Assembly: GCA_902761225.1 (NCBI GenBank)
Contig: CACWJQ010000013.1
Span: 1 to 53,667 of the forward strand
Reading direction: 5' to 3'
Source of the DNA: an uncultured Lachnospiraceae bacterium
Lineage (GTDB): Bacteria; Bacillota; Clostridia; Lachnospirales; Lachnospiraceae
DNA length: 53,667 nucleotides
Shown here: piece by piece, positions 1,450-42,052 of the stretch
How positions within the stretch are numbered: the stretch's first letter is position 1
Layout: the number at the start of each line of letters is the position of its first letter
Made by a program: the position numbers and the translations under genes
The notes under the pieces: generated by a model
Seen by the model: only the letters and a program-made list of their open reading frames with translations
The model's database searches: none
Told to the model about the DNA's origin: nothing

Positions 1450-1749
1450 TCAGTTCTCGATCTTCAGTTTGCATTCATGTCCTGAATTATCGCTGTCCAG
1501 AATTATGTCCGTAATCATATTAAACAATTCTTCACCCAACTCTTTCCGGCTTTTTTCCGCGTTGACCCAAGTTATCATCAACTCTTCACCGGGAGCATGA
1601 AAACCAAATCCGCCGCGCAGCAAATCATTGAAAGCATTAAGATTATGACCTGTCTTCCAGCCTAGAGCCTTCGTCAGCAATTTATCTATTTCGGTATAAA
1701 ACTCTTCTTCGTTCGAAAAGTTATTTCCATCTATAGTAATCTGTTTCAT
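1450..1749 (-). CDS. Barstar-family ribonuclease inhibitor-like protein
   Basis: The 99-residue acidic protein starts MKQITIDGNNF. It has the barstar layout: a first strand ending IDG, a helix NEEEFYTEIDKLLTKALGW, then G-NLNAFNDLLRGGFG (matching the conserved GxNLDALxDxL helix), a hydrophobic strand (ELMITWVNAEKS), a second helix and a final strand ECKLKIEN. Barstar proteins inhibit barnase-type RNases by plugging the active site with the acidic helix. No cognate RNase is visible nearby. The start is placed at 1749 because GAGGAAG lies just upstream; an in-frame start at 1761 would add four residues. It is the first gene of the 106-1749 minus-strand run. Confidence 0.75.
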   Translation of the reverse strand: MKQITIDGNNFSNEEEFYTEIDKLLTKALGWKTGHNLNAFNDLLRGGFGFHAPGEELMITWVNAEKSRKELGEELFNMITDIILDSDNSGHECKLKIEN

Positions 1750-1761
1750 ATTCTTCCTCAT

Positions 1762-2079
1762 AACCCGCTCAGTCTGGTTTCCTGATGGTTTTCTATACTA
1801 AGAAAATCAAACCCACTGTTGCATTATCCTGATATATATTCCAAGATAATACTTTAATGTCAATTATATCAGAGATCCTACAAAAAGCAGACTTCCAAGC
1901 CACCATCAAGGCTTTTATTGCATTATTTATGGATTTTAATCGTCCTTGGCAAGCAGGGCATCCCAAGCTTATAAACGAGGCATTTGGCTTTGAGATCAGG
2001 CCATTGCCCACCCACTGCCCGGTAAAACTTGCACGAAAAAAAATACCTCTTAACCTGATTGATTACGAGGTATTGTGAA
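1762..2079. other. Unassigned AT-rich spacer with a weak 73-codon reading frame
   Basis: This stretch between the barstar-like gene and the tRNA region has overlapping frames on both strands. The plus-strand frame 1857-2078 encodes a 73-residue protein but lacks a convincing ribosome site and matches nothing I recognise. The minus-strand frame 1793-2011 contains one CPAC motif, which might be a remnant of a transposase or zinc-binding protein, but this is speculation. The promoter for the minus-strand immunity-like cluster should lie at the left end of this stretch. Confidence 0.3.
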
Positions 2080-2092
2080 AGCAGGTGATGGG
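2080..2092. repeat. Direct repeat of the tRNA-Gly 3' end (possible attachment-site remnant)
   Basis: The 13-base string AGCAGGTGATGGG is identical to 2224-2236, the 3' end of the tRNA-Gly gene, and in the same orientation. The copies are 144 bp apart. Copies of a tRNA 3' end are the usual scar of site-specific integration. The AT-rich cluster lies on the side expected for an element inserted at the 3' end of this minus-strand tRNA. Confidence 0.5.
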
Positions 2093-2178
2093 GTGAGCGC
2101 GCTCCAGTGGAGCGCAAGCTGCGAACCGACCGAGCCGGCAGGCGAGACCCGGACCCTTGGGGCCGAGGTCTCGCCTGT
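2091..2178. repeat. GC-rich double-hairpin element
   Basis: About 88 bases are strikingly GC-rich against AT-rich surroundings. They hold two inverted repeats: GCGCTCC/GGAGCGC at 2099-2105 and 2109-2115 with a 3-nt loop, and CAGGCGAGACC/GGTCTCGCCTG at 2139-2149 and 2167-2177 with a 17-nt loop. It contains no credible gene. It may be a dispersed palindromic repeat or a structured RNA; there is only one copy in this window. Confidence 0.5.
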
Positions 2179-2185
2179 TCAATGA

Positions 2186-2216
2186 AAAAGCCCTCAGGTT
2201 TATCCTGAGGGCTTTT
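2186..2216. terminator. Bidirectional terminator downstream of tRNA-Gly
   Basis: A perfect 13-bp stem (AAAAGCCCTCAGG at 2186-2198, its complement at 2204-2216) has a 5-nt loop and flanking A and T runs. It lies 8 bases past the tRNA 3' end and would stop transcription of the minus-strand tRNA. It can work in either direction. Confidence 0.85.
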
Positions 2217-2223
2217 CGTTGAG

Positions 2224-2294
2224 AGCAGGTGATGGGAATCGGACCCACATATCCAGCTTGGAAGGCTGGTGTTCTACCACTGAACTACACCTGC
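2224..2294 (-). tRNA. tRNA-Gly(TCC)
   Basis: On the minus strand the 71-base sequence folds into a full cloverleaf. The acceptor stem is GCAGGTG/CACCTGC with discriminator T, and the D-arm is GTTCAGTGGTAGAAC. The anticodon stem is CCAGC/GCTGG around loop CTTCCAA (anticodon TCC, complement of 2260-2262). The T-arm is GTGGG with TCCGATT and CCCAT. The 3' CCA is not encoded. It is followed by the terminator at 2186-2216. Its 3' end is duplicated at 2080-2092. Confidence 0.95.
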
Positions 2295-2452
2295 ATTGCT
2301 ATGAAATTTTTCAACAGCAAAAATGATATTACACAAAAGTTTTGCTCTTGTCAAGAAAAAATCTTACCTTTTTTCCAAGAATTTCAAAAAGGTTTTTAGT
2401 ATACTTATGATGACACCTGATATATGCACTTCCCGGTCATGGAGATCAGCCT

Positions 2453-3307
2453 ATGCATTCCCGAAAAACAATATCATTACTGCCATATATACTGCTCCTG
2501 CCCATCCTTGTGACACTCCTTCTGGTCATATCACCGACAAGGGTATATGCATCCGGGATCACAGTTTATAACGGTGTAGATTATTCCTCTGTATATGATT
2601 TTGATTACTATACAAGCCGTTATCCGGACATTGCCTATTATTTCGGCGATGATCCCGCAGGTGCTCTGGCTCATTATGTGAACTTCGGTATTGCCGAGGG
2701 ACGTCAGGGTCGGGATCCGGAATCCGAAGTTCCTGCCGCTCTGCCAAATCCCTTATCCGGATTTACCGTGATACTTGATGCAGGTCACGGCGGAAGAGAT
2801 CCCGGTGCAGTCAGGAACGGGATATACGAGAAAAACCTTAATCTGATGATCGCTATGCGTATAAAGCTTCTGCTTGAATCTTACGGAGTCCGTGTGCTTA
2901 TGACAAGGTATGACGACTCATTTGTGAGCCTTGAAGAACGTTATGGATTCGAGAACATGCACCCGGAAGCGGTATTCGTCAGCATTCATTGCAACACACT
3001 GCCAGGGACATCATCCGTACGTGGCATGAGCGCATACTGCTATGCTCCCGGAAATGAAAACAACTCTCTTCTTGCCTCATGCGTATATTCCTGTGCATTA
3101 TTTTCCACAGGTGCGGAGGGCAGAGGCATTAAGACTGGTTCAGATCTTAAGGTAGTGCTCTACAGCACTATACCATCGACACTCGTGGAAGTCGGTTATA
3201 TGTCGACACCATACGAGATGTCACTTCTTACATCACCTGAATACCAGGAATCCATCGCTGAGGGGATCACAGCAGGGCTGTTCACCTATTATTTCATGAA
3301 TATCTGA
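2453..3307 (+). CDS. N-acetylmuramoyl-L-alanine amidase (Amidase_3), secreted
   Basis: The 284-residue protein has a signal peptide (hydrophobic residues about 8-27, likely cleavage near A33). Residues 40-88 form a small module with a DYY---YPDIAYYFGDD-AGALAHYVNFG-EGR pattern that recurs in clostridial wall-associated proteins. The amidase_3 catalytic domain follows from residue 103. The zinc-site residues are visible as H112 in DAGHGG, E126 in EKN and H179 in SIHCN, with the catalytic Glu E246 in LVEVGY. It hydrolyses the bond between MurNAc and L-Ala of peptidoglycan outside the cell. GGAG lies eight bases before the ATG. It is transcribed alone, convergent with murG. Confidence 0.92.
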   Translation: MHSRKTISLLPYILLLPILVTLLLVISPTRVYASGITVYNGVDYSSVYDFDYYTSRYPDIAYYFGDDPAGALAHYVNFGIAEGRQGRDPESEVPAALPNPLSGFTVILDAGHGGRDPGAVRNGIYEKNLNLMIAMRIKLLLESYGVRVLMTRYDDSFVSLEERYGFENMHPEAVFVSIHCNTLPGTSSVRGMSAYCYAPGNENNSLLASCVYSCALFSTGAEGRGIKTGSDLKVVLYSTIPSTLVEVGYMSTPYEMSLLTSPEYQESIAEGITAGLFTYYFMNI

Positions 3308-33537: not shown

Positions 33538-34698
33538 TTATATAGCAAGTTTTAATATCTTAACGATGCTGTCTGCATCAAGGGGCTCATAATGTCCCAC
33601 TTTACCGTTCCTTGTGGCACGCTTTGCCATGGTCTCAAAATCCCTGTCATCAATGCCAAGCTCGGTAAGAGTTGTCTTAAGTCCCAGCTTCTTGAAGAAC
33701 TGCTCAAGCTTCTCTGCAAGGATCCGAGCTCTTTCCTCTTCGGAATAGTTATAGGGATCTGCTCCGAATACCCTGCTTGCAAGAAGTGCCAGTCTCCAGG
33801 GCTTTACCTTTGCCATGTACTTGGTCCATGCGGTGAATACCACTGCCATTCCTTCACCGTGAACGATGTTGTACTGTGCTGACAGTTCATGCTCTATCCT
33901 GTGTGATCCCCAGTCTGCTCTTCTTCCTGCATCAAGTGATCCGCCGTGGGATACGCTTGCAAGCCACTGTATCTCTGCTCTTGCATTGATATCCTTAAGA
34001 TCTGCAAGAAGCTTATCGGCTGTAACAAGAAGTGCTCTTATGGCACCTTCGATCAGATAATCCGTGGTGTCGGAATTCTTTTCATCCGAAAAATATCTCT
34101 CAAGAAGGTGAGCCAGGACATCTGCAACACCTACGAATGTGGGATATGCGGGAAGTCCTGCGGTGAACCTGGGATTCATAATGGCGAACTTGGGGATTAT
34201 ACGGTCGTCCTCGAAGCCCAGCTTCCACTCTCCGCTTGAAAGGATTGCTGCATTGGAGGTTTCGGATCCGCTTGATGCTGTGGTTGCGATAACTCCGATG
34301 GGAAGTACTTCATCCGGAACGATTCCCTTCTCGAAGAAATCCCATACATCTCCTTCATAGGGGATTCCGATGGCAACAGCCTTTGCGGTATCAATGGAGC
34401 TTCCTCCGCCTACTGCCAGGACAAAGTCAACATCATCCTTCTTGCCCTGTGCGACCAGCTCTCTTACAAGCTCTATGGTCGGATTCGGTACTACATTTCC
34501 GTTTTCGCTGAACTTTATCCCAAGTTCCTTAACAGCCTCTTCGATCACTGAATAGATACCGAGTGTCTTTATGAAATCACCGCTGTATACGAGGAGGAGC
34601 GACTTTACATTATGCTTTTCAAGAAGTCCCTTAAGACTCTTCTCGCTCTCTTCGCCGAATACTATCTTCGCGGGGTTGTAATACTCAAATCCGATCAT
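33538..34698 (-). CDS. Iron-containing alcohol dehydrogenase (butanol dehydrogenase type)
   Basis: The 386-residue protein starts MIGFEYYNPAKIVFGE, the usual start of NADH/NADPH-dependent butanol dehydrogenases. The coenzyme loop is AVGGGSSIDTAKA. Metal ligands are visible as GVADVLAHLLERYF and HRIEHELSAQYNIVHGEGMA. It reduces aldehydes to alcohols. It starts 13 bases after metQ, so it is co-transcribed with methionine uptake genes. Its substrate there is unknown. Confidence 0.92.
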   Translation of the reverse strand: MIGFEYYNPAKIVFGEESEKSLKGLLEKHNVKSLLLVYSGDFIKTLGIYSVIEEAVKELGIKFSENGNVVPNPTIELVRELVAQGKKDDVDFVLAVGGGSSIDTAKAVAIGIPYEGDVWDFFEKGIVPDEVLPIGVIATTASSGSETSNAAILSSGEWKLGFEDDRIIPKFAIMNPRFTAGLPAYPTFVGVADVLAHLLERYFSDEKNSDTTDYLIEGAIRALLVTADKLLADLKDINARAEIQWLASVSHGGSLDAGRRADWGSHRIEHELSAQYNIVHGEGMAVVFTAWTKYMAKVKPWRLALLASRVFGADPYNYSEEERARILAEKLEQFFKKLGLKTTLTELGIDDRDFETMAKRATRNGKVGHYEPLDADSIVKILKLAI

Positions 34699-34711: not shown

Positions 34712-35560
34712 TTAGTTGAGCGGAACTACTGCTCCGTCATATGTATCGTTAATGAACTTTTTGATCTCTTCACCCTGAAGAACCTCTACAAGTGCAAGAA
34801 GTGCTTCGTTCTGTGCCTTGTCAGGTGATGTTGCGATGATGTTGCCATAGGTTACTGCTGCAAGTCCGTCGTTAGCTTCTACTGCAAGAGCCTGGCTTAC
34901 GTGAAGTCCGCCCTCGATAGCATAGTTTCCGTTTATGACAGCAACGTCAACATCGGGAAGTGCTGCTACAAGCTGCTCGGGAGCAAGCTCCTTAAATACG
35001 ATGTTCTTGGGATTCTCAACGATATCACCGATGGTTGCTGTGATGCCTGCATCCTCTTTAAGAGTAAGAAGTCCTTCCTGTGCAAGGAGGAGAAGTGCTC
35101 TTGCCTCGTTGGTAACATTGTTGGGAACAGCTACGGTTGCTCCGTCGGGAAGTGCAGCAAGATCTGTGGTCTTTCCTGCATAGATCCCGAAGGGCTCATA
35201 ATGGATAGCGCCAATTGATACGAGGTCTGAACCGTTCTCTGCGTTGAACTGATCAAGATAAGGAACATGCTGGAAATAGTTGGCATCAAGGCTTCCCTCG
35301 ATAACACCGGTGTTGGGAGTGACTGAATCCTCGATCTTAACGATCTCAAGAGTTATTCCTTTTTCTGCAAGAATGGGAGCTGCCTGCTCAAGGATCTCCG
35401 CATGAGGGGTGATGTTGGCACCAACCTTGATAACGGTATTTCCTGAAGCGGAAACAGTGCTTCCCGGTGTCTGTGAGGATGATCCGCATCCTGCAAGTGA
35501 AAGTGTGAGGCCCAGTGTTGCAGCGACTGCAACAAACTTTGTAACGATTGATCTTTTCAT
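34712..35560 (-). CDS. metQ: Methionine ABC transporter substrate-binding lipoprotein MetQ
   Basis: The 282-residue NlpA/MetQ-family lipoprotein has signal MKRSIVTKFV---SLAGC (Cys25). Family blocks are VKIEDSVTPNTGVIEGSLDANYFQHVPYLDQFN and a SIGAIHYEPFGIYAGKT core, then GATVAVPNNVTNEARALLLL. It binds D- or L-methionine for MetNI. There are 113 bases between metI and metQ, more than elsewhere in the operon. Confidence 0.95.
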   Translation of the reverse strand: MKRSIVTKFVAVAATLGLTLSLAGCGSSSQTPGSTVSASGNTVIKVGANITPHAEILEQAAPILAEKGITLEIVKIEDSVTPNTGVIEGSLDANYFQHVPYLDQFNAENGSDLVSIGAIHYEPFGIYAGKTTDLAALPDGATVAVPNNVTNEARALLLLAQEGLLTLKEDAGITATIGDIVENPKNIVFKELAPEQLVAALPDVDVAVINGNYAIEGGLHVSQALAVEANDGLAAVTYGNIIATSPDKAQNEALLALVEVLQGEEIKKFINDTYDGAVVPLN

Positions 35561-35673
35561 AATATTCTCCTTTTATACTGTAATATCGATTATTTTTTCA
35601 TATAGATAAATCCCATTCTCATTCCGGATATGTGTCAGGGATCTGATCTCAAAAACTTAACTGAAAATGTATA

Positions 35674-36324
35674 TCATTTCCTTACTTTTACGGCTATCCT
35701 GTTTCCTGCGCTCTGTATCAGCATGACCATGATCACCAGGATAGTTACTGTGGTCCACAGTACATCCTTCTGATATCTGTAGTAACCGTACTGGAGTGCT
35801 ATCGCTCCGAGTCCTCCTCCGCCTATGACACCTGCCATTGCAGAGTATCCAAGGATGGTCGCTATATTGATCGCTGCTCCGAGAAGGAGTGAAGGTGTCG
35901 CCTCGGGTAGAACAAAGCGAAGTATCACATATATCGGGGAAGCTCCCATGGAAACCGCAGCTTCTATTATCCCCGGCTGCACTTCACTGAGTGAGGATTC
36001 CACCATTCTGGCCACTATGGGTATCGCTCCGATGGTAAGAGGTACTATCGAGGCGGTGGTTCCTATGGAGGAACCTGTAACAAATCTCGTAAACGGTATA
36101 AGGAGCACCAGCAGAATGAGAAACGGAAGCGATCTGCCTATGTTGACGATAAGTCCGAGTACGAAGTTGACCGGCTTGTTCTCCATTATCCTTCCCTTTG
36201 ATGTTGCGTAGAGAAGTATTCCCAGCGGAAGACCGAAGAGATATGAGAAGACTGACGAGAAGAATGTCATTGCCAGGGTCTCAAGTATACCCGCCTTTAT
36301 GGTTTCAACAATATAATCCGTCAT
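35674..36324 (-). CDS. metI: Methionine ABC transporter permease MetI
   Basis: The 216-residue protein has five helices and the MetI blocks GILETLAMTFFSSVFSYLFG, NIGRSLPFLILLVLLIPFTR and MVESSLSEVQPGIIEAAVSMG. It overlaps the metN stop by four bases. Confidence 0.95.
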   Translation of the reverse strand: MTDYIVETIKAGILETLAMTFFSSVFSYLFGLPLGILLYATSKGRIMENKPVNFVLGLIVNIGRSLPFLILLVLLIPFTRFVTGSSIGTTASIVPLTIGAIPIVARMVESSLSEVQPGIIEAAVSMGASPIYVILRFVLPEATPSLLLGAAINIATILGYSAMAGVIGGGGLGAIALQYGYYRYQKDVLWTTVTILVIMVMLIQSAGNRIAVKVRK

Positions 36325-37322
36325 CTCTCTACCTCCGAAATACTGAGTCCGTTACCGGTAAAGAAATCTATGATCACACCCTGATCATCTGCAGATCCCG
36401 GAAGTTCCAATACCATCTGTCCGTATCCTATTCCTCCGACGCTCTTTGTGTTGGCGCTGAGGATATTAACTTTCCTTCCGGTCTTCTCCACAAGCTCTGC
36501 TATGAAGGGTCTGCTAGCGGCAAGTCCGTCAAATGCAACTCTTATCAGTCTGCTGTCAGGCTGGGAAGGATCGTACGGATTACTGGGAAATACCAGTTTC
36601 TTCGCCGCCTGTGACTTGGGTGACCTGAAGATTTCCTTCACATCTCCCGTCTCAGCCAGGTTACCGTCATCAATGATCGCAACCTTGTCACATATCTTCT
36701 CGATGACTGACATCTCGTGAGTTATGATCACTATGGTAAGCTTTCTTGTTCTGTTGATCTCCTTGAGAAGATCGAGAATCTCTCCGGTCATCCTTGGATC
36801 AAGTGCCGATGTTGCTTCGTCGCACAGAAGAACCTTAGGATCCGATGCAAGCGCTCTCGCTATGGCAACTCTCTGCCTCTGTCCGCCGGAAAGCCTTGAA
36901 GGAAACTGATTCTTCTTATCGGCAAGTCCTACAATCTCCAGCATCTCCAGCGCTTTTTCCTTCGCTTCCTTTCCCTTGATGCCTGCGATCTTCAGCGGCT
37001 GCATCACATTACTGAGAACTGTTCTCTGACCCAGCAGGTTGAAGCTCTGGAAGATCATCGCTATCTGTCTTCTTATCTTCCTGAGCTGTGAAGGTGACAG
37101 CTCTGCCAGATCCTGATCGTAGAACTTAACGCTTCCGGATGTTACATCCTCCAGACGGTTGAGGGTTCGTACAAGTGTCGACTTTCCCGCACCGCTCATT
37201 CCGATGATCCCGAATACGGAGCCCTCTTCTATATCAAGGTCTATTCCCTTGAGAGCGCTGAACTCTTTTCCGTCGTTCTTATATACTTTTGTCACATTCT
37301 CCAAACGGAAAACAGTTGCCAT
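36321..37322 (-). CDS. metN: Methionine ABC transporter ATPase MetN
   Basis: The 333-residue ATPase has Walker A GMSGAGKST, LSGGQRQRVAIARAL, Walker B LLCDEATSALDP and H-loop IVIITHEMSV. From about residue 250 the C-terminal NIL domain is present (SRLIRVAFDGLAASRPFI), which binds methionine and inhibits the transporter. It follows mccA by 12 bases. Confidence 0.95.
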   Translation of the reverse strand: MATVFRLENVTKVYKNDGKEFSALKGIDLDIEEGSVFGIIGMSGAGKSTLVRTLNRLEDVTSGSVKFYDQDLAELSPSQLRKIRRQIAMIFQSFNLLGQRTVLSNVMQPLKIAGIKGKEAKEKALEMLEIVGLADKKNQFPSRLSGGQRQRVAIARALASDPKVLLCDEATSALDPRMTGEILDLLKEINRTRKLTIVIITHEMSVIEKICDKVAIIDDGNLAETGDVKEIFRSPKSQAAKKLVFPSNPYDPSQPDSRLIRVAFDGLAASRPFIAELVEKTGRKVNILSANTKSVGGIGYGQMVLELPGSADDQGVIIDFFTGNGLSISEVER

Positions 37323-37334
37323 ATCAGTACCTTC

Positions 37335-38246
37335 TTATACGAACAGATCCTTGCTCAGGTATCTGTCCCCTCTGTCAGGGAAAATAACTACTATATTGCC
37401 GTGATCTGTCTCTTCGGCAAGTTTGAGTGCTGCCGCAAGAGCTGCTCCGGACGACGATCCTGCGAGTATTCCTTCCTTTGCAGCCAGAGTTCTGCACGCT
37501 GTGAATGCCTCATCATCAGTTACTTTGAATACTTTGTCTACCAGTGATACATCCATGGTGTCTGCGATGAAGTCATTGCCGATACCTTCGATGTTGTAGC
37601 TTCCGTGTTCTCCTCCGCCTATGATGGATCCATAGGGATCAGCGAGAACTCCCTGAAGGTTCTCATTCCTCTCTTTGAGGAACTTGACTACTCCGCTGAA
37701 GGTTCCGCCGCTTCCGGCGCCGGCTACCAGGTAATCTACCTGTCCGTCCAGCTGCTTATAGATCTCAGGGCCTGTTGTCTGGTAATGTGAGAGCGGGTTC
37801 ATCGGATTGTGGAACTGCCCCAGTGATATCGAATCAGGTATTTCCTTCAGCAGTTCACCTGCCTTTTCTTCAGCTCCCTTCATACCGCCTTCTCTGCTCG
37901 TATGAACTATTTCAGCTCCGAGAGCCTTCATGACCTTCTGCTTTTCTATGGAGAATTTTTCAGGAACTGCGAAGATAACTCTGTAGCCTCTGTTGAGTGC
38001 TGCGATTGCTATTCCTATTCCGGTATTTCCGGCAGTTGCCTCCACTATGGTAGATCCGGGCTTGAGAAGACCACGGTCCTCTGCGTCCTTTACCATATAC
38101 ATTCCCACACGGTCCTTGACGCTGCCTGCGGGATTCATAAGCTCAAGCTTTGCGTATAAGTTAACGCCCTCCTTCACTCCCAGGTGATTAAGCTTAAGCA
38201 TTGGGGTGGAACCTATCATCTCCTGGACACTCATGTATACGTCCAT
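37335..38246 (-). CDS. mccA: Cysteine synthase/cystathionine beta-synthase family enzyme (MccA-like)
   Basis: The 303-residue fold type II PLP enzyme has Lys44 in NPAGSVKDR as the PLP lysine, a TAGNTGIGIA loop, VAGAGSGGTFSG and GSSSGAALAA. Standing directly after a cystathionine gamma-lyase and before metNIQ, it matches B. subtilis MccA (from memory), which joins O-acetylserine and homocysteine to form cystathionine. The alternative is ordinary cysteine synthase CysK; the genomic pair mccB-mccA favours MccA. A G-rich ribosome site precedes the ATG. Confidence 0.85.
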   Translation of the reverse strand: MDVYMSVQEMIGSTPMLKLNHLGVKEGVNLYAKLELMNPAGSVKDRVGMYMVKDAEDRGLLKPGSTIVEATAGNTGIGIAIAALNRGYRVIFAVPEKFSIEKQKVMKALGAEIVHTSREGGMKGAEEKAGELLKEIPDSISLGQFHNPMNPLSHYQTTGPEIYKQLDGQVDYLVAGAGSGGTFSGVVKFLKERNENLQGVLADPYGSIIGGGEHGSYNIEGIGNDFIADTMDVSLVDKVFKVTDDEAFTACRTLAAKEGILAGSSSGAALAAALKLAEETDHGNIVVIFPDRGDRYLSKDLFV

Positions 38247-38247
38247 A

Positions 38248-39408
38248 TCAGTTTGCCCCCTTCCCCGAAGCTTCGATGGCCTGCTTCAGATCTGCGATAA
38301 GATCATCGGCATCCTCTATTCCGACTGAAAGTCTTATGAGCTCATCCACTATTCCGACCTGCTTTCTTATATCTGCAGGTATTGCCGCATGTGTCATTGA
38401 AGCGGGATGGCATACCAGGGATTCGACTCCTCCGAGGCTTTCTGCAAGTGTTATCAGCTTAAGGGATTTGAAGAATTTCTTATAATCATATTTTTCATCC
38501 AGCACGAAGGAGATCATTGCTCCCGCACCGTCTGCCTGCTTCTGCTGGATCTCGTATCCGGGATCGGATTTGAGTCCGGGATAGTAAACCTTGCTTACAT
38601 ATCCGCTGTTTTCGAGCCATTCTGCGATCTTGCCTGCATTGGCTACATGTCTGTCCATTCTGACTCCGAGAGTCTTGATACCTCTTATTACGAGGAAGCT
38701 GTCCCAGGGAGCGAGCACACCGCCTATGGCGTTCTGGAGATAATAGAGTCTGTCTGCCAGCGCCTTGTCCTTGACAACCGCAAGTCCTGAAACGGTATCG
38801 CTGTGTCCTCCGAGATATTTGGTGCCGCTGTGTACAACGATATCAGCCCCGAGTGCAAGAGGTCTCTGGAGGTATGGTGTAAGGAAGGTGTTGTCTACGA
38901 TCAAAAGCTTGCCGTATTTATGTGAGACCTCTGCTACCTTTGCAATATCCGTTATGGTAAGAAGCGGATTTGCGGGGCTTTCAACATAGACTGCCTTAAC
39001 GGTATCGTCTATTGCTGCCTCGATCTGTGATACATCGGATGTATCGACTATCTGATAGGTGATCCCGAAATGCTTGAATACATTGTCCAGGATCCTGAAG
39101 GTTCCTCCGTAGATATTGTCAGAGACGATGAGCTTGTCTCCCGACTTAAAAAGTGAAAGAACTGTATTTATTGCTGCAAGTCCTGAGGCAAAAGCAAATC
39201 CGTAATTGCCCTGCTCAAGATCTGCGATCAGCTTCTCCAGCGCATCTCTTGTGGGATTGCCGGTTCTGGAATACTCCCAGCCTCTGTTCTCTCCAAGGCC
39301 GTCCTGCTTGTAAGTGGAAGTCTGATATACAGGAACCGCTACAGCACCTGTTGTCTCGTCTCCGTCAACTCCGCCATGTATCAGTAATGAATTAATATTT
39401 AAGCTCAT
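38248..39408 (-). CDS. mccB: Cystathionine gamma-lyase/homocysteine gamma-lyase (MccB-like)
   Basis: The 386-residue Cys/Met-metabolism PLP enzyme has the PLP lysine in DIVVHSGTKYLGGHSD. Other blocks are TSTYKQDGLG--RGWEYSRTGNPTR, FASGLAAI and YYPGL. With MccA it forms the reverse transsulfuration route that turns homocysteine into cysteine. The start at 39408 has GAGGTG six bases upstream; the frame upstream of it belongs to the leader. It is the first structural gene of a seven-gene sulfur operon, behind a 330-base leader with a Cys-codon attenuator. Confidence 0.92.
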   Translation of the reverse strand: MSLNINSLLIHGGVDGDETTGAVAVPVYQTSTYKQDGLGENRGWEYSRTGNPTRDALEKLIADLEQGNYGFAFASGLAAINTVLSLFKSGDKLIVSDNIYGGTFRILDNVFKHFGITYQIVDTSDVSQIEAAIDDTVKAVYVESPANPLLTITDIAKVAEVSHKYGKLLIVDNTFLTPYLQRPLALGADIVVHSGTKYLGGHSDTVSGLAVVKDKALADRLYYLQNAIGGVLAPWDSFLVIRGIKTLGVRMDRHVANAGKIAEWLENSGYVSKVYYPGLKSDPGYEIQQKQADGAGAMISFVLDEKYDYKKFFKSLKLITLAESLGGVESLVCHPASMTHAAIPADIRKQVGIVDELIRLSVGIEDADDLIADLKQAIEASGKGAN

Positions 39409-39514
39409 TTTGTTCACCTCATATCGATAAATTTTTTTGTCCGGATCTGTCCAGGTCCCTGAATCGGGACAGCTTATTTGTGAACACGGACCTAAGTTTT
39501 TCCCTGTTTTGGCT

Positions 39515-39545
39515 AAAAAAATACGGGGCTTACTTCTAAGCACCC
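39515..39545 (-). terminator. Attenuator terminator in the mccB leader
   Basis: On the minus strand GGGTGCTTA-GAAG-TAAGCCCC (bulged T) forms a stem of 5 plus 3 bp with a GAAG loop. It is followed by GTA and seven T residues ending at 39515. It lies 107 bases before the mccB start and 26 bases after the leader stop codon. Its first G residues (39544-39545) are shared with the 3' arm of the antiterminator at 39544-39554. Confidence 0.8.
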
Positions 39546-39637
39546 GGACTGAAAGCTTTCTGATACGAGGTCAACATCGTATAAGATCAGGACGCGCGAC
39601 GCCAAAGTCAGACGCCTGTGCTTTATTTTCAGTCCGG
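39544..39637 (-). promoter_or_regulatory. Antiterminator stem of the mccB leader
   Basis: CCGGACTGAAA at 39627-39637 is perfectly complementary to TTTCAGTCCGG at 39544-39554. The 5' arm lies inside the leader coding sequence (codons 23-27), nine bases past the two adjacent Cys codons. The 3' arm overlaps the base of the terminator. A smaller hairpin (ATACGA/TCGTAT) lies between the arms. Confidence 0.75.
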
Positions 39638-39705
39638 CTGATCAAAGTTCGACAACATCTGTATGTACACATGTATCCATGCCTTTTTATCTTTGCAGTT
39701 CTCAT
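39571..39705 (-). CDS. Cysteine-codon leader peptide of the mccB operon
   Basis: The 44-codon frame begins MRTAKIKRHGYMCTYRCCR and ends DLIRC. Its ATG has an optimal AAGGAGGTG eight bases upstream, stronger than most genes in the window. Cys codons are 13, 17, 18 and 44 (all TGT), four in 44, a strong excess for a cytosolic peptide. It begins about 30 bases after the mapped promoter and overlaps the antiterminator arm. It is almost certainly a sensor of charged tRNA-Cys rather than a functional protein, but no translation evidence is available. Confidence 0.75.
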   Translation of the reverse strand: MRTAKIKRHGYMCTYRCCRTLISRTENKAQASDFGVARPDLIRC

Positions 39706-39736
39706 TGTTCGCACCTCCTTTTCTTAAGATGTCTTT

Positions 39737-39765
39737 ATACTATCACCGGTTCCCGGTGTTGAAAA
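39737..39765 (-). promoter_or_regulatory. Promoter of the mccB operon
   Basis: Minus-strand -35 TTTTCA (39760-39765) and -10 TAGTAT (39737-39742) have a 17-base spacer. The same two hexamers with the same spacer stand before metY. The spacer here also holds a palindrome CACCGG-N3-CCGGTG (39744-39758) that the metY promoter lacks. Confidence 0.75.
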
Positions 39766-39775
39766 TTACACGGTG

Positions 39776-39807
39776 TTTATCGCCCGCGATAAAGAAAATT
39801 TATCACG
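39776..39807 (-). promoter_or_regulatory. Upstream operator of the mccB promoter
   Basis: An 18-bp perfect palindrome TTTATCGCCCGCGATAAA (39776-39793) is followed after 6 bases by TTATCACG (39800-39807). It lies 10 bases upstream of the -35 and reaches just under the GDSL gene end (39810). The metY promoter has the same layout. The position and dyad suit a LysR-type activator, but no regulator gene is in the window. Confidence 0.7.
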
Positions 39808-39809
39808 GC

Positions 39810-40439
39810 TTATGCCACATTTATTTCGGTCAATTTACTGTATATTGCTTCTGACAATGCTTTGTGACCTTCCTCATTGAGATGCTCATCATCCTTTTTA
39901 TCAGGTGAAGCAATATCAGATGCTGCAAGGAATCTCACGCCTCTTTTTTCAGCGATCCTGGAATATACTTCCCTGAGTTCGTGGCTTACTTCTATTGAGT
40001 CCTTATCAAACTCCGGATCCTTGTCCGGTCTCCACACCTCATCTCCGAGATGTATGGGGGATACCAGGATGATCTTCTCTGCAGGAACGGTCTTTTCGAT
40101 CTCATCGAGGCAGAGCTCAATGCCCTTTCCTATTGTATGTGCGGATGCTCCGTATACGCTCTTACAATCGTTGGTTCCCAGCATGATGATCACTGCATCA
40201 AGCGGAGCATGACTTTCCAGGATCACCGGAAGAAGAGATAATCCTTTTCTTCCAACCCTCAGCTCATCTTCGAAAACCGTTGTTCTTCCGCACAAGCCTT
40301 CCTCTATGACGCGCGTGTCATTTAATCTGCTCTGAAGCAGTCCGGTCCATCTGACATTTTCCGGATATCTGACACGGGAGCCGGTTCCCGGAACCAGCCC
40401 CCACGTATTTGAATCACCAAAAGCAAGTACAGACTTCAT
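39810..40439 (-). CDS. SGNH/GDSL hydrolase
   Basis: The 209-residue protein starts MKSVLAFGDSNTWGLVPG with the block I Ser nucleophile in FGDSN. Block III is IIMLGTNDCKS and block V is the DDEHLNEEGH segment with Asp/His. No signal peptide is present, so it is cytoplasmic. The family hydrolyses esters, including acyl and acetyl groups. It starts 14 bases after metY and is probably in the same transcript; removing acetyl from O-acetyl compounds would be one fit, but this is inference. Confidence 0.9.
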   Translation of the reverse strand: MKSVLAFGDSNTWGLVPGTGSRVRYPENVRWTGLLQSRLNDTRVIEEGLCGRTTVFEDELRVGRKGLSLLPVILESHAPLDAVIIMLGTNDCKSVYGASAHTIGKGIELCLDEIEKTVPAEKIILVSPIHLGDEVWRPDKDPEFDKDSIEVSHELREVYSRIAEKRGVRFLAASDIASPDKKDDEHLNEEGHKALSEAIYSKLTEINVA

Positions 40440-41828: not shown

Positions 41829-41912
41829 TTATCTTTCGTCCTCGGAGGGATACATCTGACTACACATTCGATGGCACATCTCTCTGTTCTGAACCGTTAT
41901 TCTTTTTATCAT
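41829..41912 (-). CDS. Met/Cys leader peptide before metY
   Basis: The 27-codon frame starts MIKRITVQN and contains EMCHRMCSQM (residues 11-20), then ends PSEDER. Its ribosome site AAGGAGGTG lies nine bases upstream of the ATG. Four Met (including the start) and two Cys in 27 residues is a strong excess. The stop is 91 bases before metY. No terminator was found between them; that stretch is A-rich and unstructured. Its role is inferred from analogy with the mccB leader. Confidence 0.65.
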   Translation of the reverse strand: MIKRITVQNREMCHRMCSQMYPSEDER

Positions 41913-41972
41913 CTGTATGCACCTCCTTGCTTTCTTTTGTTTGATCATCTGTGTGATCTCTTTGATGGGTTC

Positions 41973-42001
41973 ATACTATCATCGTAAACTGGTATTGAAA
42001 A
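41973..42001 (-). promoter_or_regulatory. Promoter of metY
   Basis: Minus-strand -35 TTTTCA (41996-42001) and -10 TAGTAT (41973-41978), spacer 17 bases. The hexamers and spacer length are identical to the mccB promoter. The sequence TGTAATTTTCAA around the -35 is also shared. Confidence 0.75.
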
Positions 42002-42011
42002 TTACAAGGAA

Positions 42012-42043
42012 TTTATCGTGTGTGATAAACGTTGCTTATCACG
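42012..42043 (-). promoter_or_regulatory. Upstream operator of the metY promoter
   Basis: TTTATCGTGTGTGATAAA (42012-42029, dyad TTTATC-N6-GATAAA) is followed after 6 bases by TTATCACG (42036-42043). It lies 10 bases upstream of the -35, as at mccB. Confidence 0.7.
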
Positions 42044-42052
42044 ACATGAATA

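Follow-up and report, generated by a model that had tools for sequence, protein, structure and literature searches.

A probable cysteine-sensing transcription attenuator before mccB in an uncultured Lachnospiraceae bacterium, with relatives before other sulfur genes

What governs transcription into the cysteine genes of an uncultured Lachnospiraceae bacterium is the question raised by a short frame with several cysteine codons, located 297 nt upstream of an mccB-type gene on the minus strand of contig CACWJQ010000013.1 (assembly GCA_902761225.1). The window analysed here is the whole stretch of 53,667 nucleotides, and all features described in it lie on the minus strand. The gene directly behind the frame (38248..39408) encodes an mccB-type cystathionine gamma-lyase / homocysteine desulfhydrase, which scores 550.5 bits with NF005810 (cut-off 594) and ties at 550.6 bits with the cystathionine gamma-synthase model NF004821 (cut-off 642); since both scores are under their cut-offs, the name rests also on the operon. 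It is followed by an mccA-type cysteine synthase / cystathionine beta-synthase gene (37335..38246; TIGR01136, 349.3 bits, cut-off 344.15) and by metN, metI and metQ-type methionine ABC transporter genes (34712..37322), of which MetI scores above its cut-off and MetN and MetQ below theirs. We take the mccB- and mccA-type genes to convert homocysteine to cysteine and the metNIQ-type genes to import methionine. An iron-containing alcohol dehydrogenase gene (33538-34698) lies closely behind metQ on the same strand, and the region upstream of the leader contains metY and an SGNH hydrolase gene, likewise on the same strand.

The leader frame (39571..39705; ATG 39705-39703, stop TGA 39573-39571) has 44 codons, encodes the peptide MRTAKIKRHGYMCTYRCCRTLISRTENKAQASDFGVARPDLIRC and is preceded by the Shine-Dalgarno (SD) sequence AAGGAGGTG (39712..39720), identical in the two related genomes G027 and G029. 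Its Cys codons, all four TGT, are codon 13 (39669-39667), the adjacent pair 17 and 18 (39657-39652) and codon 44 (39576-39574). The first three (39652..39669) are the candidate control codons, and relatives carry Cys runs at the equivalent place; immediately 3' of the pair stands the Arg19 codon CGA (39649..39651). As looked for in an attenuator, a short SD-led frame with Cys codons is thus found upstream of mccB, and the control codons specify the presumed end product of the pathway, standing before what we take to be homocysteine-to-cysteine genes. The frame itself closes with CGA TGT just before the stop (39574-39579), and an Arg-Cys pair occurs near the end in several relatives.

Upstream of the frame, a promoter-like block (39737..39793) combines the palindrome TTTATCGCGGGCGATAAA (39793-39776), a -35-like TTTTCA (39765-39760) and, at a spacing of 17 nt, a -10-like TAGTAT (39742-39737). 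Such a promoter/operator-like block (TTTATC-N6-GATAAA, TTTTCA-17-TAGTAT) occurs before both leaders of the window, at 39728-39810 for mccB and at 41940-42045 for metY. In G029 it is largely present as well; G027 lacks it ahead of the mccB leader, up to which the SGNH gene extends there. A simple consensus scan of the window found no sigma-70 consensus promoter before the leader. Two related loci, L089 and L091, have genes close to the operon that, judged by reading, resemble LysR regulators. The second leader frame of the window (41829-41912), before metY, reads MIKRITVQNREMCHRMCSQMYPSEDER, has a strong SD, is kept with changes in G027 and G029 and resembles a decayed relative (MCHRM). At this locus no hairpin with a T-run was seen before metY; the stretch there is C-rich and G-poor. 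Rho sites are C-rich and G-poor.

Two helices that share bases follow the control codons of the mccB leader. The 5' arm of the antiterminator (39620..39637) consists of CCGGACTG (39637-39630), a bulge AAAAT and AAAGC (39624-39620), and the 3' arm (39544..39556) of GCTTT (39556-39552) and CAGTCCGG (39551-39544). The intrinsic terminator (39515..39546) is the hairpin CGGG-T-GCTTA-GAAG-TAAGC-CCCG (39546-39524), followed by TA and seven T (39521-39515), and lies between leader and gene (39546-39515). The antiterminator 3' arm and the terminator base have CGG in common, and the order along the transcript is Cys pair, CGA, 5' arm, a loop with folding potential, 3' arm and terminator. A conserved antiterminator therefore overlaps the terminator, with its 5' arm just past the control codons, as an attenuator would be built. 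The fold of 39508-39640 has a z of -2.9; the terminator hairpin was missing from a simple terminator scan of the window, perhaps owing to its bulge.

The same arrangement is kept in the closest relatives. The exact motif of the window occurs in 3 of 31 genomes of the genus, always before mccB, and the MccB proteins of the other two (G027 and G029) are 97-98% identical to the window protein. In an alignment of the three species, the SD, the stretch ATGTGTACATACAGATGTTGTCGA and the terminator are retained, the last with a G-U change in G029; the peptide core KRHGYMCTYRCCRT is identical, all changes within it being synonymous. The inner helix is AAAGC/GCTTT in the window and ATGGC/GCCAT in G029, a double compensatory change, while two outer-helix pairs are broken in G027. 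In G029 there is no stop after codon 44, and the frame continues through the terminator. A further genome, G011 (MccB 85% identical), has no such leader upstream and gives a weak covariance-model match at E 0.32.

These comparisons bear on the preliminary description of the locus, which had reported the 44-codon frame with its strong SD and four TGT codons (17 and 18 adjacent), an 11-bp stem CCGGACTGAAA (39637-39627) / TTTCAGTCCGG (39554-39544), a terminator with seven T, and downstream genes making cysteine from homocysteine. Frame, ribosome site and codons are present as described, and the coordinates of stem and terminator hold in the window. The gene reading fits the mccB and mccA types, whose pathways we assume; among the five genes from mccB to metQ, several score under curated cut-offs. 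The complementarity of the 11-bp stem is exact in the window, but its continuous register is lost in G029 through the inner-helix change; the conserved antiterminator helix instead comprises segments of 8-9 bp and 5 bp, set apart by a bulge of 5 nt in the 5' arm.

In a collection of species, the exact peptide motif gave 27 stretches, 25 of them chance by reading and the remaining two from the same two relatives. Since the exact motif is thus confined to one genus, the wider family was approached through mccB. Orthologs of MccB (E up to 1e-130), found by protein homology alone, are present in 25 of 397 family genomes at 26 loci. Upstream regions read by eye contain a short Cys-rich frame at 19 of these 26: directly before mccB at 14, before a metY-mccB-mccA operon at one (L089), and 1.1-2.5 kb upstream at four (L075, L076, L077 and a locus read as L097). 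No such frame was seen by eye at the other seven (L063, L065, L073, L078, L080, L081 and L082).

A formal scan searched the 450 nt before mccB for short SD-led frames containing neighbouring Cys codons; it took in all 49 distinct loci, with one duplicate left out, and was positive at 26, one of which (L137) appears spurious. The same scan gave 0/49 on the opposite strand, a mean of 0.5 and a maximum of 2 in 200 dinucleotide shuffles, and at most seven loci for any other doubled residue; nine of the 49 loci come from one genus, so that the loci are not independent. In a narrower version, without the duplicate and eight loci whose candidates lie more than 450 nt away or are doubtful, the count is 26/41. 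Together with the covariation described below, this constitutes the check on Cys-codon conservation and stem covariation in leaders of mccB orthologs that had been proposed in the preliminary description, and its outcome is positive. A second, simpler architecture was observed by eye at L097 (3935-4140) and L101, with longer Cys runs (CCCCLCCC, CCCNCC) and short arms such as CAGGTGG / CCACCTG / CAGGTGGGGTC; the logic may have arisen independently in this case. Frames with CCCACCCK or CCCKQE stand about 1.7 kb before mccB in another family of the order (L133, L134 and L139), where a terminator scan gave no hit.

The conservation of the antiterminator as a helix was assessed in 20 loci that had been judged by eye to share one architecture, six of them with the outer helix only; loci of other architecture, such as L067, L068, L071, L079, L083 and L084, were left out. 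Standard pairs occupy 230 of 250 antiterminator positions, compared with a mean of 210 and a maximum of 224 in 2000 arm swaps. In all 20 loci, the 5' arm begins 10, 13 or 16 nt past the last Cys codon, a spacing that would presumably put the arm at or just beyond the leading edge of a ribosome whose A site holds this codon. For covariation, the intact sequences of 15 of the 20 loci were aligned without structural help, leaving out L062, L064, L069, L072 and L131, which are more divergent or contain insertions. In this alignment, 93.3% of helix positions are paired and six pairs are changed on both sides. The covariation score of 0.350 compares with 0.181 in shuffles and is attained by none of the 500; the observed number of doubly changed pairs is reached in 29/500 and that of pair types in 70/500. 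Shifting the partner by one base lowers pairing to 41%, and RNAalifold recovers the same antiterminator helix unaided.

A covariance model was built from the 15 aligned sequences with the Cys-codon columns included, so that its recovery of Cys leaders is partly circular, which the mccB codon scan is not. The model recovers the non-training loci L062, L131, L064/L098 and L069 at E <0.01 and L072 at E 0.012, and does not match loci of other architecture. Across the 397 family genomes, it finds at least 42 matches in 34 genomes, a lower bound because of stricter filters, five being training members. All 37 non-training matches have an open frame with Cys at the expected site (36 by script, L185 by eye), and 34 have an SD-led start, the other three being without a clear start. 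Double changes occur at 11 of 14 helix pairs against 4.7 expected (0/500 shuffles), in an alignment that is fitted to the model. At the level of the order, 21 matches were obtained in 16 of 295 genomes, including two further families. Of these matches 17 are new, and ten of the 17 were read (L190-L199), and each carries a Cys-CGA-ATG leader; in five of the ten, all from one further family, the core has a single Cys codon (MWCRM or MYCRM).

The genes behind these leaders widen the sulfur context beyond mccB, a sulfur-type gene lying downstream in 33 of the 37 non-training matches. They comprise metY orthologs (17), a distant metY-like gene (1), mccB (1, by position), cysK (1), binding proteins like that of L163 (9), another cystine-type binding protein (1), MetQ-like proteins (2, one a fragment, by eye), a LysR-type regulator (1), a putative cyclase (1), and a (2S)-3-sulfopropanediol dehydratase-like glycyl radical enzyme (1, partial and under its cut-off), with two loci lacking a gene type. 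At L155, a Cys leader precedes the gene of this last enzyme (1501-3146), which suggests, by gene order, that a sulfonate could serve as sulfur source under cysteine control. The L163 protein (1734-3140), also behind a leader, fuses a family-3 solute-binding domain to an NlpA/MetQ domain and is possibly a joint receptor for cystine and methionine. Eight further leaders stand before L163-like proteins, the domain composition given here being that of L163 itself.

Given this recurrence, it is highly likely that the leader is a ribosome-mediated transcription attenuator that senses cysteine as charged Cys-tRNA and controls mccB-mccA-metNIQ, the genes behind it presumably being co-transcribed. RNA polymerase would transcribe the leader with a ribosome trailing. 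When Cys-tRNA is scarce, the ribosome would stop at Cys17-Cys18, perhaps aided by the rare CGA that comes next, and its front edge would halt just short of the 5' arm; once the 3' arm is made, the two-part antiterminator could form, sequester CGG at the terminator base and let transcription proceed into mccB. When cysteine is ample, the ribosome would be over the 5' arm and the loop during synthesis of the 3' arm, the terminator would win and the transcript would end near 39515. A Cys-rich decoy frame and two competing hairpins would thus probably switch the cysteine genes on when cysteine is depleted.

One step of the mechanism had been placed differently before. The preliminary description had a ribosome at codon 44 masking the 5' arm, but the stop (39573-39571) falls between the arms (39637-39620 and 39556-39544), so a ribosome on it covers neither. 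By the footprint size that we assume, the 5' arm can be masked solely by ribosomes on roughly codons 20-33, and a ribosome that reaches the stop would act through having occupied the 5' arm and the loop earlier, during synthesis of the 3' arm. With three such details corrected, the cysteine-attenuator interpretation is supported by the comparative evidence.

Folding calculations delimit what kind of switch this could be. In a truncated transcript ending in the terminator loop, with a stalled ribosome, the antiterminator has a probability of 0.66-1.00 in 20/20 loci; it is likewise 0.66-1.00 without any ribosome, so that termination of a leader that is not translated does not follow from the model. 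With the full terminator and a stalled ribosome at equilibrium, the antiterminator is ahead of the terminator in only 3 of 23 loci, and in the window it reaches 0.25 against 0.61 for the terminator. At equilibrium the two helices are near balance and no clean switch results, as their overlap amounts to only 3-4 bp, located at the terminator foot; the terminator state obtained in 23/23 loci follows from the masking of everything upstream of the stop. Since the antiterminator forms first and the terminator is favoured at equilibrium in most loci, the switch would have to be kinetic: in this model, the terminator would have to displace the antiterminator during the pause at the T-run.

Codon choice in the leaders differs from that in the genes behind them. 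In 36 leaders, TGT occurs 129 times and TGC 33 times, compared with 2 and 22 in their downstream genes (Fisher p about 1e-11); in the window alone the TGT bias is not clear (4/4 in the leader vs 10/26 in 10 genes). Of 62 leaders, 56 have CGA directly behind the last Cys codon and three more have it one codon later, even though CGA makes up only 7 of 376 Arg codons in downstream genes and 2 of 122 in 10 genes of the window. The triplet Cys-CGA-ATG is found in 53/62 leaders, the window differing with CGA ACT, and the Cys-CGA site lies outside both antiterminator arms. This constancy may reflect slow decoding that lengthens the pause, or a role of the nascent peptide. A tentative and somewhat improbable extension is that one RNA family runs the cysteine regulon of the order via a fixed rare-codon pause site, UGU-CGA-AUG. 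There, the ribosome would be positioned before the antiterminator by the supply of Cys-tRNA together with slow CGA decoding and, possibly, the nascent peptide; the number of Cys codons alone would then not define the sensor. A helix of the Cys/CGAATG stretch with GCGTTCG, seen by eye in one genus, was dropped, as it offers no covariation to test and is absent in the window.

The same core could instead be read as an arrest site, where the nascent peptide or codon pair at Met-x-Cys-Arg(CGA)-Met halts the ribosome, perhaps in response to a small molecule, and how many Cys codons there are would be of little importance. The frequency of Cys-CGA-ATG despite the rarity of CGA, the single-Cys leaders (MWCRM, MYCRM) of a second family of the order and the position of the conserved core outside either arm speak for such an arrest. 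However, loci of other architecture (L097, L099, L100 and L101) have up to six Cys codons without constant neighbours, the Arg codon is conserved as nucleotides, unlike a purely peptide signal, and the window lacks the Met. We therefore regard arrest of this kind as unlikely and favour sensing of Cys-tRNA at the Cys codons.

The remaining alternatives treat the frame as incidental or give it another purpose. That a metabolite riboswitch, a T-box or another structured RNA acts here is very improbable: a two-part helix with a bulge is indeed conserved, and Cys T-boxes govern the same operon in Clostridium perfringens (PMC2940859), but the SD, start and Cys codons are conserved as well, and the structure keeps a near-fixed distance 3' of the Cys codons. 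Rfam at gathering score matches only a tRNA in the window and nothing in 20 related loci, and the T-box model RF00230 has no match at the leader site, although the same genome has T-box matches elsewhere; T-box or S-box identity was accordingly dropped. Those matches in the window genome (G000; L200-L205) number six, two above gathering score, and precede genes that by reading resemble trp and tRNA synthetase genes. Equally, the hairpin might be the ordinary terminator of the upstream metY and SGNH genes, which lie on the same strand and in G027 have no promoter-like block between SGNH and leader, with a frame arising by chance. This is extremely improbable, as the pairing test, the covariation and the adjacent-Cys scan argue against it, many genera have the combination of frame, antiterminator and terminator ahead of mccB, metY and transporter genes, and a promoter-like block stands between SGNH and the leader of the window. 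Hardly more credible is a working small protein encoded by the frame: its core is conserved in three species, but neither Pfam nor NCBIfam matches the window leader, four relatives have no match in Pfam, eight peptides gave only two insignificant NCBIfam matches, and between genera the peptides have in common only the Cys core and the RNA-pairing part, with length and stop varying.

Altogether, translated leaders appear to control part of the cysteine supply in Lachnospiraceae and sister families, where a single conserved RNA architecture is reused before metY, mccB, cysK, cystine/methionine-type binding proteins and a sulfopropanediol dehydratase-like gene. In genomes of uncultured organisms, the leader family can serve to mark sulfur genes, and it raises the testable question of why a rare Arg codon is fixed directly behind the sensing codon. 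Within the open-licence PubMed Central literature (subscription papers and preprints being outside its scope), no report of a Cys leader family in Clostridia was found.

In trp/his-type attenuators of E. coli, control codons and the position of the ribosome set the choice between antiterminator and terminator, as proposed here. The present leader differs in having its stop between the arms rather than ahead of or within the 5' arm, and in an overlap of only 3-4 bp. Within the Firmicutes, classical leader-peptide attenuation resembling that proposed here has been described for His leaders before hisS*/hisZ in Bacilli, which a 2010 survey presented as new for the phylum; they differ in amino acid (histidine), class (Bacilli) and genes (PMC2965389). 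The Clostridium Cys T-box before ubiG-mccB-mccA has in common with the present leader its target genes, a Cys-tRNA signal and premature termination; it is active in C. perfringens and reported as not fully functional in C. acetobutylicum (PMC2940859). Cysteine genes including mccBA are described there under T-boxes that read the tRNA directly without translation, unlike the translated leaders found here, which have no T-box match. Furthermore, runs of Cys codons before cysteine genes have been described in leaders of Mycobacterium/Propionibacterium cys and Bifidobacterium cbs; for these Actinobacteria, the source reports Cys codons near the stop and no conserved terminator hairpins, and Rho was suggested (PMC1262725). 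The uORFC-8-2 element before cysS in Rhodobacterales likewise has a short frame with tandem Cys codons followed by an intrinsic terminator, and ribosome-mediated attenuation by Cys-tRNA has been proposed for it; it is described from alpha-proteobacteria and before cysS only, is dominated by UGC and has its Cys codons within the first stem (PMC8632094). Compared with that description, the present family belongs to Lachnospiraceae and sister families, precedes mccB and several other sulfur genes, is dominated by UGU and carries its Cys codons upstream of the antiterminator, 10-16 nt 5' of the helix.
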